From: Lentzea guizhouensis
Lineage (GTDB): Bacteria; Actinomycetota; Actinomycetes; Mycobacteriales; Pseudonocardiaceae
Direction of reading: 5' to 3'
Length of the DNA: 64,000 bases
Assembly (NCBI RefSeq): GCF_001701025.1
Contig: NZ_CP016793.1
Location: 7,130,001-7,194,000 of the forward strand
The notes under the pieces were generated by a model. It did no database searches. It was not told the DNA's origin and was given only the letters and a program-made list of their open reading frames with translations. Positions 10,496 through 51,752 of this stretch are shown piece after piece. Positions within the stretch are counted from its first letter, which is position 1. Each line of letters opens with the position of its first letter. The position numbers and the translations under genes were made by a program.

Positions 10496-11508
10496 AGCCG
10501 CCCTCCGCTCTGCTCGCCGACCTGCGCGCGGTGAGGAGCTCCCTCGACGGGCGCACCACGTGGTGGGCGAAGCTGCTCAAGGCCGCCGGCTTCGAGATCA
10601 CCCAGCACACCCGCAACCACCTCGCGCTCGGCCTGGTGGTGTGCTTCATCCCGCTCTGGCTCGGCATCGTCCACGCCGTCATCCCCAACAACACCGTCGA
10701 GTTCCACTCCCAGGTGCTCGGTCACGCGATGCGGGTCGACGCCAACGAGCTGGCCATGATCTCGGGCGCCATCAACGCGGTCACCCTGATCATCGGCTTC
10801 ATGCAGTTCGCGTCCGTGCGGCGCTCCAGCGACTTCGACCAGCGGCTCGTCCTGGCCGGCCACCCGAGGTCGTGCATGCTGGTCGCCAAGCTCGTGGCGC
10901 TGGTCCTCATGGCCGTGGTGACCGCGCTCTACGCCACGGTCGTCATGGACCTGTTCTGGGAGCCGCGCCAGGTCGCGCTCATCGGGTTCAGCCTCTTCAC
11001 CAGCGCGCTCACCTACGGCGGGCTCGGCATGGTCCTCGGCCTGGCGCTGTCGACCGAGCTGGCCGGCATGTTCGTCATCATCATGGTGAGCCTGGTCGAC
11101 GTGATGGTGCAGAACCCCATCATCAACCCGTCGGCCGACCTCGGCCCGGTCCGCCTGCTGCCGACCTACGGTTCGATGCAGGCGGCCGCGGTCGCCGGGT
11201 TCACCGACGAGGGCGCCGTCGGCCACGCCCTGCTCGGCCTGGTGTGGCTGCTGGCCTTCAGCCTGGTGGGTGCCACCGCGTTCCACTGGCGGACCAAGGA
11301 CCACGCCGCCCACACCACGGCGTCCGCCCCGCAGACCGCGACGGTCGTCGTGACCACCCGCGCCGACGGGACCCTGGTGATCGAGTCGACGGCCGGGCCG
11401 ATCATGGTGTGCTCCGAGCCGCCGGGCTGCACGTGCGAGAAAACCGTGCCACGGCAACGTGTGCGCAGACCGGCCGCGACGAAGCTGACCGTGTTCGAAG
11501 CGCCCTGA
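10492..11508 (+). CDS. ABC transporter permease
   Basis: This 338-residue protein has six likely membrane helices: about 45-65 (LALGLVVCFIPLWLG), 85-105, 130-155 (LVALVLMAVVTALYATVV), 160-185, 195-215 and 245-265. A hydrophilic tail of about 65 residues contains a Cys pair (CSEPPGCTCE). Translation is coupled to the ATPase by a GTGA overlap. The C-terminal codons and stop lie in a 20-bp tandem duplication (11485-11524), so the natural end may have been slightly different. It is the membrane half of a type-2 exporter. Confidence 0.8.
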   Translation: MKPPSALLADLRAVRSSLDGRTTWWAKLLKAAGFEITQHTRNHLALGLVVCFIPLWLGIVHAVIPNNTVEFHSQVLGHAMRVDANELAMISGAINAVTLIIGFMQFASVRRSSDFDQRLVLAGHPRSCMLVAKLVALVLMAVVTALYATVVMDLFWEPRQVALIGFSLFTSALTYGGLGMVLGLALSTELAGMFVIIMVSLVDVMVQNPIINPSADLGPVRLLPTYGSMQAAAVAGFTDEGAVGHALLGLVWLLAFSLVGATAFHWRTKDHAAHTTASAPQTATVVVTTRADGTLVIESTAGPIMVCSEPPGCTCEKTVPRQRVRRPAATKLTVFEAP

Positions 11509-11533
11509 CCGTGTTCGAAGCGCCCTGACCGTG
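11485..11533. repeat. 20-bp tandem duplication over the permease stop codon
   Basis: The unit CTGACCGTGTTCGAAGCGCC occurs at 11485-11504 and again at 11505-11524, followed by nine bases of a third copy. Each copy boundary creates a TGA in the permease frame, so the first boundary supplies the present stop. The centre of the unit, TTCGAA, is a palindrome. Confidence 0.9.
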
Positions 11534-47033: not shown

Positions 47034-47771
47034 TCAGCAGCCCTGGAAGTGCTTGTCCGCGGACCACCCGGCGTTGGCCCACGCGCTGGGCTCGGCCGGC
47101 GTGAACCCGCCCGGCTGCTCGGCCAGCTCGTCCACCAGCCAGGCTGTGAAGCGCGCGGCGCCCTGCGGGCAGGTGTGGATCCCGTCGGCGCTGCGGTCGG
47201 CCTTCCCGTCCTTCACCTGCTGGTAGGTCTCGCCCCACACGGCGGTCGCGTCCAGGAAGAACGCCTGGCCGGGAGCCGTCTGCGCGACCGCCTTCGCGAC
47301 GGCCGGCGTGCGCTGCAGCTCGGCCAGGTGCGGCCGGTAGAAGTCGTCGGCGCGGATCGGCGGGGCGGAGACGAACGCGAGCTTCGAGCCGGCACCGGTC
47401 ACCAGGCCCAGCAGCTTCTCGTAGGCGGCCCGTTGCTCCTGCTCGGTTCCCCAGTCGTAGGTGGTGAGCTGGTAGACCACCACGTCCGCCTGCGCGGCGG
47501 TGATCCGTTCGGAGATCTTGGGCCAGTTCTCCTCGGCGAACGGGCCCACGACGTTGCCACCGCCCTCGGCGGCGATCGACTCGAAGCCGACACCACTGGC
47601 CTGGAACGCGGCGGCGAGCGGCAGTGCCTCGCCGACCGCGATGGAGTCGCCTGCGAACAGCACCGATGACAGCCCCGGACCTGTCGGTGCGGTGGCGGCC
47701 TGGTCCGAGCAGGCGGTGGCGGACAGCAGGGCAGAGGCGAGGACGAGCGTGGTGAGCCGTGAGCTGGTCAT
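47034..47771 (-). CDS. Secreted SGNH-hydrolase lipoprotein
   Basis: This 245-residue protein has a lipoprotein signal (VLASALLSATAC) and an SGNH/GDSL-like fold: block I FAGDSIAVGEAL with the nucleophile Ser, block II Gly (EGGGNV), block III Asn/Thr region (YQLTTYDWG) and block V DGIHTCPQGA with the catalytic Asp and His. It would be an esterase or acetylhydrolase on the cell surface. Start ATG at 47771. It is divergent from the response-regulator gene and is followed by the oxidoreductase remnant. Confidence 0.78.
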   Translation of the reverse strand: MTSSRLTTLVLASALLSATACSDQAATAPTGPGLSSVLFAGDSIAVGEALPLAAAFQASGVGFESIAAEGGGNVVGPFAEENWPKISERITAAQADVVVYQLTTYDWGTEQEQRAAYEKLLGLVTGAGSKLAFVSAPPIRADDFYRPHLAELQRTPAVAKAVAQTAPGQAFFLDATAVWGETYQQVKDGKADRSADGIHTCPQGAARFTAWLVDELAEQPGGFTPAEPSAWANAGWSADKHFQGC

Positions 47772-47883
47772 GGGCCCGACTCTGGCGACGCCGCGTCCCG
47801 GCCGCTCCGCCGCTTTGTCGCGGTTGTGTCGCAGGGACCTGCTCGTAGCCGGCGACCCGGCGGGGCTTGTCCATACTGGACGG

Positions 47884-48558
47884 GTGGCGGCCATTCTGCT
47901 CATCGAGGACGATCCGCTGGTCAGGCGCGGGCTGGAGCTCGCGCTGAGCAGGCACGGCCACGCCGTCCGGTCCGCTCCCACCGGCGAGGACGGCCTGCGG
48001 GAGTTCCGTTCCTCCACTCCGGACATCGTGGTGCTCGACCTGATGCTGCCGGGTGTCGACGGTGTCGAGGTGTGCCGGCGGATCCGCGCGCAGGGCGAGG
48101 TCCCGGTGATCATGCTGACCGCGCGGGGCGACGACTTCGACGTCGTCGGTGGCCTGGCCGCGGGTGCGGACGACTACGTGGTGAAGCCCGCGCAGCCGAC
48201 GGTGCTCGACGCCAGGATCAGGGCGGTGCTGCGGCGCACCACCGCCGTGACCGACGACGTCCGGCTGTTCGGTGAGCTGCGCATTGACACCGCCGGGCTC
48301 ACGGTGACGTTGCGCGGGGAGCCGGTGCCGTTGACGCCGACCGAGCTGCGCTTCCTGCTGACCGTGTCGCGGGCGCCCGGCCGCGTGCTCAGCCGGGAGC
48401 AGCTGCTGCTGGAGGTGTGGGAGCACGACTACCTCGGCGACTCGCGGCTCGTCGACAACTGCGTCCAACGGCTGCGCGCGAAGATCGAGGACGACCCGGC
48501 GGCACCCCGCTACGTGCAGACCGTGCGCGGCTTCGGGTACCGGTTCGGGCCGGTCTGA
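47884..48558 (+). CDS. OmpR-type response regulator (CseB/MtrA-like)
   Basis: This 224-residue regulator has a full receiver (acidic pair DD at 9-10, phospho-acceptor Asp52 in LDLMLPG, Thr79, Lys101) and a winged-helix domain (TPTELRFLLTVSRAPG, RLVDNCVQRLRAK, VRGFGYRF). GTG at 47884 directly begins the receiver. Its stop overlaps the kinase start (TGATG). With kinase and lipoprotein genes it forms a three-gene envelope-sensing unit like CseB-CseC-CseA or MtrA-MtrB-LpqB. Confidence 0.88.
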   Translation: MAAILLIEDDPLVRRGLELALSRHGHAVRSAPTGEDGLREFRSSTPDIVVLDLMLPGVDGVEVCRRIRAQGEVPVIMLTARGDDFDVVGGLAAGADDYVVKPAQPTVLDARIRAVLRRTTAVTDDVRLFGELRIDTAGLTVTLRGEPVPLTPTELRFLLTVSRAPGRVLSREQLLLEVWEHDYLGDSRLVDNCVQRLRAKIEDDPAAPRYVQTVRGFGYRFGPV

Positions 48559-49955
48559 TGCGCTGGTGGCCGCGAGGGCTGCGGCCGCGGTTGCTGGTCG
48601 CGTTCGTGCTGGTGACGGTGCTCGGCGCGGCGGCTGCGGCGTGGGCGGGCGCGGGATCGGCGAGCGCGGCCCTCGTCCGGTCGGCCGAACAGCGGCTCGC
48701 CGGGACGGTCACCGGCCAGATCACCGCGGTCACGCCGGGGCTGACCCACCCGCCGGACCAGGAGGCGCTGGAACGGTTGCGCACCGCCGTCGGGCCGGAC
48801 ACGGTCGTCACCTACGAGGGGCTCGTGTCGGCGGACGGACCCGACCGGACCACCGACGAGCTCCGCGCCGCCGTGCGCACCCGGCACCGGCTGGTCACCC
48901 AGCGCGTGACCGCGGAGGGCACGTCCTGGTTGCTCGTCGGCACGCCGGTGGTGATCACCGCACCCGACGGGTCGCGCACGCCGTCCGGGATCGAGGTCTA
49001 CGCCGCCCGCGACCTCACGGCCGTGGAGCAGGAGATCACCGGCATCGTCAGGACGGCGGTGCTCACCGCCGCGCTGGCGTTGCCGCTCGCGGTGGTGCTG
49101 GCGCTGCTGGCCGCGGCGAGCGTGCTGCGCCCGGTGCGCGACCTGCGGGACACCGCCCGGCGCCTGGCCGCGGGCGACATGGACGCGCGGTCCCAGCCGC
49201 AGGGCGCCGACGAGCTCGCCGACCTGACGGCGACCGTCAACACGATGGCCGAGTCCGTGCAGACGACGATGGCGGCGATGCACCGCATGCAGACCGACGC
49301 GCGGAGGTTCGCCGCGGACGTGTCGCACGAGCTGCGCACGCCGTTGAGCACCCTGACCGCCGTGGTGGAGGTGCTGGCGATGTCCGCCGACGGGATGGAG
49401 CCCGACGCGCGGGAGTCGGCGCGGCTCGCGATCATCGAGACCAAGCGGCTGGTCCGGCTGGTCGAGGACCTGATGGAGGTGTCCCGCTTCGACGCCGGCA
49501 CCGCGGTGCTGCGGCTGGAGGACGTGGACGTCAGCGCGGCCGTGCGGGCCTGTCTGCACGCCCGGCGCTGGCTCGGCGAGATGGAACTGGTGACGCCTCC
49601 GGTGGTGTGGGCGCGACTCGACCGGCGCCGCCTGGACGTCGTGGTGGCCAACCTCGTGGGCAACGCGCTGCGGCACGGCGCGCCGCCGGTGCGCGTGCGT
49701 GTGTCCGAAGTGGGCGGACAGGTGCTGGTCGAGGTGACGGACAGTGGACCGGGCGTGCCGGAGGAGGTGCTGCCGCACGTGTTCGACCGGTTCTACAAGG
49801 CTGACGCGGCCCGCACCCGCACGCCCGGCAGCGGCTTGGGGCTCGCGATCGCGCTGGAGAACGCACGACTGCACGGCGGCGGGATCACCGCGGCCAACCG
49901 GGCTGGTGGTGGCGCGCGGTTCGTGGTGCGGCTGCCGAAGGAGGGACGCGGGTGA
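48558..49955 (+). CDS. Sensor histidine kinase
   Basis: This 465-residue kinase has two membrane helices (about 12-32 and 165-188) around an outside domain, a HAMP domain (RPVRDLRDTARRLAAGDMD), the H-box with His257 (DVSHELRTPL), N-box (VVANLVGNALRHG) and G-boxes (DSGPGVPEE, GSGLGLAIALENA). It phosphorylates the regulator encoded before it. Its last codons (KEGRG-stop) overlap the first of three repeated micro-ORFs in a GTGA, and its tail resembles the end of each repeat. Confidence 0.88.
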   Translation: MRWWPRGLRPRLLVAFVLVTVLGAAAAAWAGAGSASAALVRSAEQRLAGTVTGQITAVTPGLTHPPDQEALERLRTAVGPDTVVTYEGLVSADGPDRTTDELRAAVRTRHRLVTQRVTAEGTSWLLVGTPVVITAPDGSRTPSGIEVYAARDLTAVEQEITGIVRTAVLTAALALPLAVVLALLAAASVLRPVRDLRDTARRLAAGDMDARSQPQGADELADLTATVNTMAESVQTTMAAMHRMQTDARRFAADVSHELRTPLSTLTAVVEVLAMSADGMEPDARESARLAIIETKRLVRLVEDLMEVSRFDAGTAVLRLEDVDVSAAVRACLHARRWLGEMELVTPPVVWARLDRRRLDVVVANLVGNALRHGAPPVRVRVSEVGGQVLVEVTDSGPGVPEEVLPHVFDRFYKADAARTRTPGSGLGLAIALENARLHGGGITAANRAGGGARFVVRLPKEGRG

Positions 49956-50005
49956 ACCGGGCCTGGCTCGCCGTGGTGGCGCTGTCGAGGGAGGAGCGCG
50001 GGTGA
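49952..50005 (+). CDS. Micro-ORF 1 of the repeat chain
   Basis: GTG at 49952 overlaps the kinase stop (GTGA). It encodes a 17-residue peptide, MNRAWLAVVALSREERG, and ends at 50003-50005, which overlaps the next GTG. Its N-terminus mimics the lipoprotein signal MNRIWLVVVLLL. Translation is plausible from GGAGGGA upstream but unproven. Confidence 0.5.
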   Translation: MNRAWLAVVALSREERG

Positions 50006-50055
50006 ACCGGGCCTGGCTCGCCGTGGTGGCGCTGTCGAGGGAGGGACGCGGGTGA
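50002..50055 (+). CDS. Micro-ORF 2 of the repeat chain
   Basis: GTG at 50002 overlaps the stop of micro-ORF 1 and its own stop (50053-50055) overlaps the next GTG. The 17-residue peptide is MNRAWLAVVALSREGRG, differing from copies 1 and 3 by Gly for Glu. A GGGAGGAG site lies 6-13 bases upstream. Confidence 0.5.
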   Translation: MNRAWLAVVALSREGRG

Positions 50056-50105
50056 ACCGGGCCTGGCTCGCCGTGGTGGCGCTGTCGAGGGAGGAGCGCG
50101 GGTGA
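50052..50105 (+). CDS. Micro-ORF 3 of the repeat chain
   Basis: GTG at 50052 overlaps the stop of micro-ORF 2; its stop at 50103-50105 overlaps the GTG of the lipoprotein gene at 50102. The peptide is MNRAWLAVVALSREERG. It is the last link of the coupled chain. Confidence 0.5.
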   Translation: MNRAWLAVVALSREERG

Positions 50106-50581
50106 ACCGGATCTGGCTCGTCGTGGTGCTGCTGCTCGTGGGCTGCGGGGTGCGACCGTCCGGCGTCACCGACGGCGGCGACCCACCGACCGGCGTCGCA
50201 CCCGGCGTGACGCTGTACTTCGTGGACGCGAACGGCGAGCTCCGGCCGCAGCTGCGCGACACCTCGCGCCTCGGCACCGTCTCGGAGGCGCTCGACCTGC
50301 TGCTCAGCGGTCCCGGCGGCTCCGGCCTGCGCACCGAGATCGCCTCGACCCCCACCACACGCGTGGTGGTCACCACTGCCCCGAACGTCATCCGCCTCCT
50401 GCTGCCGCTGACCGCCAGGGACGTGACACCGCGCGGCATCGACCAGATCGTGTGCACGGCACTGGGCGTGCACGTGCAGAGCGGGGGAGCCCGCACGATG
50501 AAGGTGCAGACCCGCTTCACCCAACCCGCGCCGGAGTCCGAAGTGGAGCGGACCTGCCCCCTGATCACCCCAGGCGGGTGA
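50102..50581 (+). CDS. GerMN-domain lipoprotein
   Basis: This 159-residue protein has a short lipoprotein signal (MNRIWLVVVLLLVGC, lipidated Cys15) and a GerMN-like domain (VTLYFVDANGELRPQLRD, SEALDLLLSGPGGSGLRTEI). It belongs with the kinase and regulator before it; lipoproteins of this kind (CseA, LpqB) tune the partner sensor kinase at the membrane. GTG at 50102 is the fourth in a chain of overlapping starts. Its end overlaps the convergent acyltransferase gene by 17 bases. Confidence 0.82.
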   Translation: MNRIWLVVVLLLVGCGVRPSGVTDGGDPPTGVAPGVTLYFVDANGELRPQLRDTSRLGTVSEALDLLLSGPGGSGLRTEIASTPTTRVVVTTAPNVIRLLLPLTARDVTPRGIDQIVCTALGVHVQSGGARTMKVQTRFTQPAPESEVERTCPLITPGG

Positions 50582-51752
50582 CGTCGACCTGCGGCGGCGC
50601 CGGAGCGGGCAGGAACACCCACAGCAGCACCAGCCCGACCATCGCCAGGACGAACGCGACCAGCCCGCTCCCGCCGACCGCCCAGCCCGCCCGGAACCGG
50701 ATCGGGTCCTCGACCAGGTACCTCGTCACCGCCGCCAGGGCGATGGACACCCCGAACGCCACCACGGTCCTGACCCAGCTGCTGGTCGCGGCGGCCAGCA
50801 CGAACACCGGCCAGTGCCACAGGTAGAGGCTGTAGGAGATCTCCCCGAACCACCGCAGTGGCCGCCACGACAACACCGGCACATCCGATGCCCGCGCGCA
50901 CAAGGCGATCAGCACCGCCGAAGCCAGCGAGTGCGCGAACAACCCGCCGGTGAACAGCCACACCGAGCTCGTGCCGTCCGCGAGCGCCCACATGGTGCCG
51001 ATCCCCGCCACCAGCAACAGCAGCACGACACCGGTCCACCGCCCGACCGCACGCCCCAACGCCTCCCGGACCGGAGGCGTCGCCACCACCGCGCCCAGCA
51101 ACAACGAGAACGCCCTCGTGTCCGTACCGGTGTAGGCGCGGGTGGGGTCGGCGGCGTCGAGCAACACGACCATCACCCCGAGCGAAGCGACCGAGACGAG
51201 CGCGGCGGCCACCGCGACCCGGTGCCCCGCACGCCGCCCACCCCGGGCGAGCAGCACCACGACGACCGGCCACACCAGGTAGAACTGCTCTTCGACCGCG
51301 ATGCTCCACAGGTGCTCGAACACCCGCCCGCCACCGAACCGGTCCCAGTAGCTCGCCGACTCCGCCAGCAGGTGCCAGTTCTGCAGGTTGGCCTGCACCC
51401 ACGGCCCGTCGTCGAGCGTCGTGCGCACGACGTCATCCGCCGCGAACCCCCACACCACCAGGGTCACGACGACGAGCACGGTCGCCAGCGCCGGGAACAA
51501 CCGGCGAACCCGCCTGCCCCAGAACGCGACGAGCGACACCGTGCCCGTCGCCGCCACCTCCCGCAGCAGCAGGCCGGTGATCAGGTAGCCGGACAACGCG
51601 AAGAACAGGTCCACGCCCAGGAACCCGCCGGGCAGCAGGTCCGCGTGGAACAACAGCACACCGAGCACGGCGACACCGCGCAGACCGTCCAACGAGGACA
51701 CATGAGGACCACGCCGCACCGGCGCTGTTCTTGCTTCCTGGAGCTCCGTCAC
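50565..51752 (-). CDS. Acyltransferase 3 family membrane protein
   Basis: This 395-residue protein with about ten helices has the family motifs SSLDGLRGVAVLGVLLFHA (catalytic-type His), GFLGVDLFFALSGYLITG, RRVRRLFPAL and HLWSIAVEEQFYLVWP. It lacks the SGNH domain found in longer OafA-type members. It would move acyl groups across the membrane onto cell-surface sugars or a secreted product. GTG start at 51752. Confidence 0.9.
   Translation of the reverse strand: MTELQEARTAPVRRGPHVSSLDGLRGVAVLGVLLFHADLLPGGFLGVDLFFALSGYLITGLLLREVAATGTVSLVAFWGRRVRRLFPALATVLVVVTLVVWGFAADDVVRTTLDDGPWVQANLQNWHLLAESASYWDRFGGGRVFEHLWSIAVEEQFYLVWPVVVVLLARGGRRAGHRVAVAAALVSVASLGVMVVLLDAADPTRAYTGTDTRAFSLLLGAVVATPPVREALGRAVGRWTGVVLLLLVAGIGTMWALADGTSSVWLFTGGLFAHSLASAVLIALCARASDVPVLSWRPLRWFGEISYSLYLWHWPVFVLAAATSSWVRTVVAFGVSIALAAVTRYLVEDPIRFRAGWAVGGSGLVAFVLAMVGLVLLWVFLPAPAPPQVDVTRLG

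Follow-up and report, generated by a model that had tools for sequence, protein, structure and literature searches.

Lentzea guizhouensis is a soil actinomycete, and the window, meaning the whole stretch of its DNA that was analysed (64,000 nucleotides), carries an operon in which the genes for a response regulator, a histidine kinase and a lipoprotein follow one another. Direct reading of the sequence places three gapless 50-bp units (49952-50101) between the kinase gene and the lipoprotein gene. The features of the locus are:

47884..48558 (putative start), plus strand: OmpR-type response regulator gene (Response_reg and Trans_reg_C)
48558..49955, plus strand: sensor histidine kinase gene (HAMP, HisKA and HATPase_c; C-terminus VVRLPKEGRG, then stop)
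49922..49935, plus strand: upstream seed CGTGGTGCGGCTGC in the kinase tail, sharing 13 of 14 bases with 50122-50135 (12 of 13 from the second base)
49940..49944, plus strand: GGAGG before the GTG of the first micro-ORF, with equal spacing again at 49990, 50040 and 50090
49952..50001, plus strand: 50-bp unit 1, with micro-ORF 1 at 49952-50005 (product MNRAWLAVVALSREERG, then stop)
50002..50051, plus strand: 50-bp unit 2, with micro-ORF 2 at 50002-50055 (product MNRAWLAVVALSREGRG, then stop); 2 of 50 bases differ from units 1 and 3
50052..50101, plus strand: 50-bp unit 3, with micro-ORF 3 at 50052-50105 (product MNRAWLAVVALSREERG, then stop)
50102..50581, plus strand: lipoprotein gene (159 aa, MNRIWLVVVLLLVGCG...), whose GTG start overlaps the stop of micro-ORF 3 as GTGA
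50122..50135, plus strand: downstream seed CGTGGTGCTGCTGC in the lipoprotein signal peptide

The response regulator TGA (48556-48558) shares one base with the kinase ATG (TGATG). A convergent acyltransferase gene (50565-51752, minus strand) overlaps the 3' end of the lipoprotein gene tail-to-tail by 17 bp (50565-50581). The kinase has 82% protein identity to that of Umezawaea tangerina and about 76-78% to the Lentzea orthologs compared.

The lipoprotein contains LVGC in its N-terminus, presumably a lipobox-like motif, and matched no Pfam or NCBIfam profile. CseB, CseC and CseA constitute an envelope-stress system in Streptomyces to which CseA is linked as lipoprotein, and LpqB is the partner in the MtrAB-LpqB system; a CseA- or LpqB-type identity of the window's lipoprotein was considered and found no profile support. 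Compared with the NCBIfam profiles, the response regulator scores 270 bits for CseB, below the cut-off of 350, and 241.5 for MtrA (cut-off 300), while the kinase scores 277.1 for MtrB (cut-off 450), both again below.

Structure of the repeated region

The GTG starts at 49952, 50002, 50052 and 50102 are spaced by exactly 50 bp. With the kinase TGA at 49953-49955 and the TGA of the third micro-ORF at 50103-50105, there are four GTGA joints in series: one between the kinase and micro-ORF 1, two between units and one between micro-ORF 3 and the lipoprotein gene. Each micro-ORF has 18 codons, 17 residues and a stop, and the products (GTG read as M) have the consensus MNRAWLAVVALSRE(E/G)RG followed by a stop. 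Unit 1 equals unit 3, and the two deviating positions of unit 2 both match the kinase tail. Tandem Repeats Finder (TRF) detects a period of 50 (4.1 copies, score 337) and also a period of 100 (score 372), and the tandem identity of the array is 0.96. With a score of 337 and two identical units, the array exceeds chance.

A GGAGG lies 7 bases 5' of every GTG start (4/4). Matches to the GGAGG pattern begin at 7179940, 7179990 and 7180040 of the genome (G000), i.e. at 49940, 49990 and 50040 of the window, and the lipoprotein start forms the end of the last one. The anti-Shine-Dalgarno duplex energies over the starts are -12.3 to -13.0 kcal/mol, the lipoprotein start having -12.3 kcal/mol. The first-pass annotation had described three gapless 50-bp copies, each with a Shine-Dalgarno-like run, a GTG and an 18-codon frame, and four start/stop overlaps in series that include the kinase stop and the lipoprotein start; all of this is borne out by the direct reading, the TRF period and the duplex energies, and the span given for it (49951-50105) is correct to within 1 bp.

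No inverted repeats of at least 20 were found at 49800-50250 when repeat-mediated hairpins were sought, Rfam gave no match at 49500-50500 with gathering thresholds, and a promoter and terminator scan of 47700-50800, with sigma-70-type consensus only, found none. Elsewhere in the window, a perfect 20-bp repeat is present in 2.5 copies at 11485-11533.

Conservation of the junction

Orthologous junctions were collected from one genome per species where the kinase was at least 55% identical; duplicates, recognised by the same 120-base neighbourhood, were removed, loci that lacked a kinase match or lay in reverse orientation were left out of the count, and start codons were inferred from frame and position. 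A plain single -4 overlap is found in 45 of 46 distinct junctions, and a tandem array comparable to that of the window in none of the 46. The single exception (L114) is probably a miss of the script, as the tail PRNPEAR and its stop, ending in GTGA, lie just upstream. Two orthologs in reverse orientation have one GTGA junction each; that of G020 is additional to the 46, and that of G010 equals over the compared stretch a junction already counted (L087).

The highest tandem identity among the orthologous junctions is 0.78, for a 27-bp repeat in Streptomyces lycii, to be compared with 0.96 in the window. At this S. lycii locus (L078, about 2893-2975) the lipoprotein ortholog seems to carry an Arg/Val-rich N-terminal extension on the 27-bp repeat (MSRVSRVRWVRRVGRVGRAIRVGRAG...), which is another repeat expansion at an orthologous junction, in frame rather than chained.

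A search with the array DNA gave matches in 3 of 390 family genomes: the window's own, G400 and G340. The G400 match is a single-copy junction, identical over the compared stretch to that of U. tangerina. G340 was rejected as a relative of the array; the resemblance is gapped, lies inside a reading frame and has no RTGA joint, and is attributed to chance similarity. The -4 overlap is ancestral, with the array found in one genome only (46 junctions, 390 family genomes), because 45 of the 46 junctions are plain overlaps and only G400 and G340 matched besides the window's own genome.

Origin of the units

The unit is chimeric, being composed of the ends of both neighbouring genes: 28 of the 33 bases at its head agree with the lipoprotein start, and 23-25 of the 29 at its tail agree with the kinase tail. 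The units differ among themselves at 0-2 of 50 positions, and from the flanks at 4-6 of 29 and 5 of 33. When the three units are discounted, the upstream and downstream seeds are one 50-bp period apart. This direct repeat is probably older than the units, because the seeds in the present flanks resemble each other (13/14) more than either resembles the units (11/14 each). In U. tangerina, the closest repeat-free relative found, GTGGTGCGGTTG and GTGGTGCTGCTG stand exactly 50 bp apart across the junction and agree at 10 of 12 bases, a direct repeat of the GTGGTGC type.

These comparisons suggest an origin by slippage between the repeat in the kinase tail (GTGGTGC..CTG, V-V-R-L) and the repeat in the signal peptide (GTGGTGCTGCTG, V-V-L-L), 50 bp apart, which would have copied the junction together with its ribosome-binding site. 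Later expansion, probably with a 100-bp step of two units, would have given three near-identical units; a two-unit step is suggested because unit 2 alone differs, at 2 bases. The kinase gene has 84% DNA identity to that of U. tangerina and the units have diverged from the flanks by 14-21%; the first duplication may therefore be ancient, and the presence of three units a recent condition.

Since a period of 50 leaves a remainder of 2 on division by 3, each copy becomes a full 18-codon frame running from the previous stop to the next start. A direct repeat at 50 bp provides what slippage of this kind requires and accounts for the period, the register of the frames and the signal-like character of the peptides, with no need for design. 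The micro-ORF products were earlier said to mimic the lipoprotein signal sequence; the likeness holds, but it seems to reflect ancestry, as a duplicated lipoprotein start fused to a duplicated kinase tail, and not mimicry. The period was likewise read as 54 minus 4. This spacing is right, and its cause appears to be the 50-bp direct repeat, which is already there in the repeat-free U. tangerina.

A general frame bias of such seeds, as a rule, was examined in 45 orthologs that have the -4 overlap and was rejected. Offsets with remainder 2 average 4.00/12 in 12-mer identity, against 3.65 for remainder 0 and 3.67 for remainder 1, and 12-mers in which 9 or more bases match number 178 of 30,240, 93 of 31,050 and 125 of 30,195, respectively. 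The best offset per locus has remainder 1 in 23 loci, 2 in 16 and 0 in 6. Seeds with at least 10 of 12 matches show no register preference (remainders 2, 1 and 0 in 6, 6 and 5 of 45 loci), so remainder 2 was no foregone conclusion and does not follow from a general tendency.

Junction duplications in other genomes

The 390 family genomes were surveyed for two GGAGG-N7-RTGA sites 36-66 bases apart. There are 167 matches in 92 genomes and 4 with a reversed-pattern control, which does not model gene junctions, so that the contrast says only that the sites are non-random. Forty-seven of the 167 matches were examined, the window included, and the rest belong to a 38-bp family (see below), were unfetched or are repeats (L187, L188, L191). 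At least 0.74 identity across the period, a cut set after the values had been seen, was found in 12 of the 47 loci, several of which look orthologous (e.g. G063 and G067) and are non-independent. Remainders 2, 0 and 1 occur in 6, 4 and 2 of these 12, which gives no clear sign that the frame is under selection.

Some of the 12 are not gene junctions. Flanking open frames of 60 codons or more, on either side, are found with remainder 2 in the window, G097, G113 and G199, with remainder 0 in G253 and with remainder 1 in G063 and G067, which seem to represent a single event. The remainder-2 case in G015 belongs to a longer chain that precedes a T2SSE gene.

Three single-unit duplications consist of a downstream start and an upstream tail: one with period 59 between two ABC transporter genes (L174, G199), one with period 53 before a YcaO gene (L131, G097) and one with period 41 between genes for a HisKA_3 kinase and a LuxR-type regulator (L135, G113). 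In the same genus as the window, G003 has two 113-bp units between hydrolase and ABC transporter genes (L152; joints at 2014, 2127 and 2240), with a substructure of 57 + 56 bp and chained ORFs of 38 codons. The duplications in G097, G113, G199 and G003 are independent junction duplications with the make-up of the array, and they support its reading as a duplicated junction.

In G253 (L176, 66), G134 (L141, 66) and G190 (L173, 63) a junction or start region is duplicated with a period that is a multiple of 3. Such duplications put two starts in frame and may lengthen the N-terminus of the downstream protein. Three genomes of the window's genus have a micro-ORF of 17-21 codons with -4 overlaps, with periods 59 (L178, G008), 50 (L179, G018) and 62 (L186, G021). 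The similar flanking ends make this apparently one orthologous junction, at which the micro-ORFs differ in sequence and length. Junction duplication thus appears to be recurrent, with chained micro-ORFs as one outcome.

Many of the survey matches belong to a tandem unit of 38 bp encoding a 13-residue peptide, typically MTADVLxPAEAAx followed by a stop (38 + 4 = 42 bases). These units have -4 overlaps and a Shine-Dalgarno-like run at each joint, are placed directly before long open frames in several genera and form chains of up to five joints (G331, G082). The loci are:

L153, L171 (G331); L154-L156 (G082); L157, L170 (G328); L159 (G151)
L160 (G160); L161 (G240); L163 (G280); L164 (G283)

A pattern related to this family is present in 82 of 390 family genomes, a number that includes ordinary genes with similar first codons, and its one match in the window's genome is probably such a gene. 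A tighter pattern was found in 2 of 200 genomes of the order; the two belong to the window's family, which contributes 29 of the 200, and none of the 171 genomes of other families has it. The 38-bp family resembles mycobacterial interspersed repetitive units (MIRUs) in layout and is separate from the array between the kinase and lipoprotein genes.

Discussion

The most probable reading, with a probability of about 0.62, is that the array is a lineage-specific duplication of a -4 junction by slippage, likely acting as a termination-reinitiation relay with a modest effect. Ribosomes ending the kinase would stop and start again at one GTGA after another until the lipoprotein start is reached, aided by the GGAGG of each unit, and the 17-residue peptides would be by-products. 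The first-pass annotation had suggested that ribosomes could pass along the four overlaps, and we infer translation of the micro-ORFs and such a relay from the layout, which makes the passage plausible. Each transfer would lose some ribosomes and each Shine-Dalgarno sequence may load some, with the lipoprotein output most likely modestly lower or near a plateau. The array would be tolerated because the frame register leaves the coupling unbroken. A 2025 review states in its treatment of coupling that the -4 overlap is the commonest spacing and that coupling is most efficient between -4 and +3 (PMC12548453).

The strong Shine-Dalgarno sequence of each unit also allows independent initiation, so that extra copies need not shift output much and a modest effect is likelier than a steep rheostat. 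In a simple model with output = e x input + d at each joint, going from zero to three units lowers the output from 0.60 to 0.13 with e=0.6 and d=0, and from 0.90 to 0.78 with e=0.6 and d=0.3. With e=0.9 the output does not change when d=0.1 and rises from 1.20 to 1.69 when d=0.3. The model is flat or rising when transfer is efficient and de novo loading takes place, and this was counted against the relay explanation.

The predicted cost of opening the four start regions is 5.8, 13.2, 12.6 and 14.5 kcal/mol with 60-base flanks, and 5.2-11.2 kcal/mol for the starts of four orthologs, values that shift with the flank chosen. For the lipoprotein start the opening energy goes from 4.1 (no unit, 100-base flanks) to 14.5 kcal/mol, strongly dependent on the flank and weak as evidence, and a unit-less construct is predicted to be more open than unit-bearing ones with both flank sizes. 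The high predicted cost at three of the four starts fits a dependence on an arriving ribosome.

It is unlikely that the units are a functionless spacer, translated by chance or untranslated, while free 30S subunits initiate the lipoprotein at its own Shine-Dalgarno sequence. The strength retained by that sequence (-12.3 kcal/mol) and the restriction of the array to one genome agree with such a spacer, but the costly start structure predicted with 60-base flanks (14.5 kcal/mol) points to help from an upstream ribosome, and the -4 overlap is conserved throughout the operon family.

A selected translational rheostat, in which slippage adjusts a copy number that differs from strain to strain and fixes the ratio of kinase to lipoprotein, is quite unlikely. 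It would suit an array in a signalling operon with its frames, Shine-Dalgarno sequences and overlaps all intact and with units so homogeneous that expansion or homogenisation has continued, and the model gives a steep fall with e=0.6 and no de novo initiation. When d=0.3 the fall is slight, however, and extra copies were found in none of the 46 ortholog junctions.

An assembly artefact, with one junction at the true locus, is very improbable. Short tandem repeats can be miscounted, but the genome is a single contig of 9,997,872 bp, and a simple stutter would produce neither the 2 deviating bases of unit 2 nor the differences between units and flanks. Least probable is that a mobile MIRU-like element inserted itself at the start codon of the lipoprotein gene and then expanded in tandem, for although the layout fits the insertion of MIRUs at start codons with -4 coupling, as the review describes it in its account of MIRUs (PMC12548453), and a dispersed family of chained 38-bp micro-ORFs is present in related genera, the unit is composed of two flanking gene ends and is found nowhere else in the 10-Mb genome, where the best other matches reach E 0.0034, 83% over 39 bases and 75% over 66. 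An interspersed element was accordingly rejected, there being no second site in this genome.

The preferred reading of a duplicated junction can be widened, and this extension is doubtful: junction-duplication relays would be a recurrent actinomycete route to chained coupled micro-ORFs in which the number of units sets downstream translation, with the array between kinase and lipoprotein as a natural case of three steps and the 38-bp family as a mobile counterpart. Slippage over a -4 junction would give complete micro-ORFs whenever the period leaves a remainder of 2 on division by 3. No description of such relays was found in the literature searched.

The array is a natural serial test of translational coupling, with a near-identical -4 junction four times per transcript. 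Ribosome density along it would give the transfer efficiency per junction, which bears on re-initiation by terminating ribosomes. Slippage over an overlapping junction would be a simple route to micro-ORFs that does not break the operon, and the findings suggest that layouts of the MIRU type can arise more than once in bacteria other than mycobacteria.

Comparison with known systems

MIRUs have reportedly been described in a two-component-system operon by Supply et al. in 1997, to go by the title of the paper, to which both PMC12548453 and PMC2734929 refer. This operon is said to be senX3-regX3. The array shares with MIRUs the tandem units of about 40-100 bp between genes, here three of 50 bp, and the small ORF per unit with -4 spacing, here three 18-codon frames with GTGA joints, the coupling of which would follow from the layout. 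In the passages of the 2025 review that deal with them, MIRUs are short, seemingly mobile repeats that insert at start codons with -4 coupling and likely have minimal impact on genes, and their small ORF is coupled to the neighbour with -4 spacing (PMC12548453). Another account, in its part on these elements, gives units of 40-100 bp at 41 sites in M. tuberculosis H37Rv and lists differential translation within an operon among the proposed roles (PMC2734929). On the other hand, MIRUs are dispersed and appear mobile and foreign, whereas the unit of the array is at one site in the genome and is made of the lipoprotein start and the kinase tail. The layout is MIRU-like, yet by these descriptions the array is not a MIRU, because it is neither dispersed nor foreign to its site.

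Gene pairs coupled by a -4 (NTGA) overlap have the same overlap geometry and Shine-Dalgarno sequence as all four junctions of the array, and the NTGA stop/start overlap is kept in the orthologs. The usual pair has one junction, in contrast to the four in series with three micro-ORFs between them found here.

Coupled upstream short ORFs and the leaders of bicistronic designs are also alike in that a short ORF hands the ribosome to the next start, as the array would do. According to section 11 of the review, it is a short translated ORF that delivers the ribosome to the next start in coupled leaders (PMC12548453). Unlike the leaders of bicistronic designs, which precede one gene, the array is a chain within an operon and is fed by a full-length gene.
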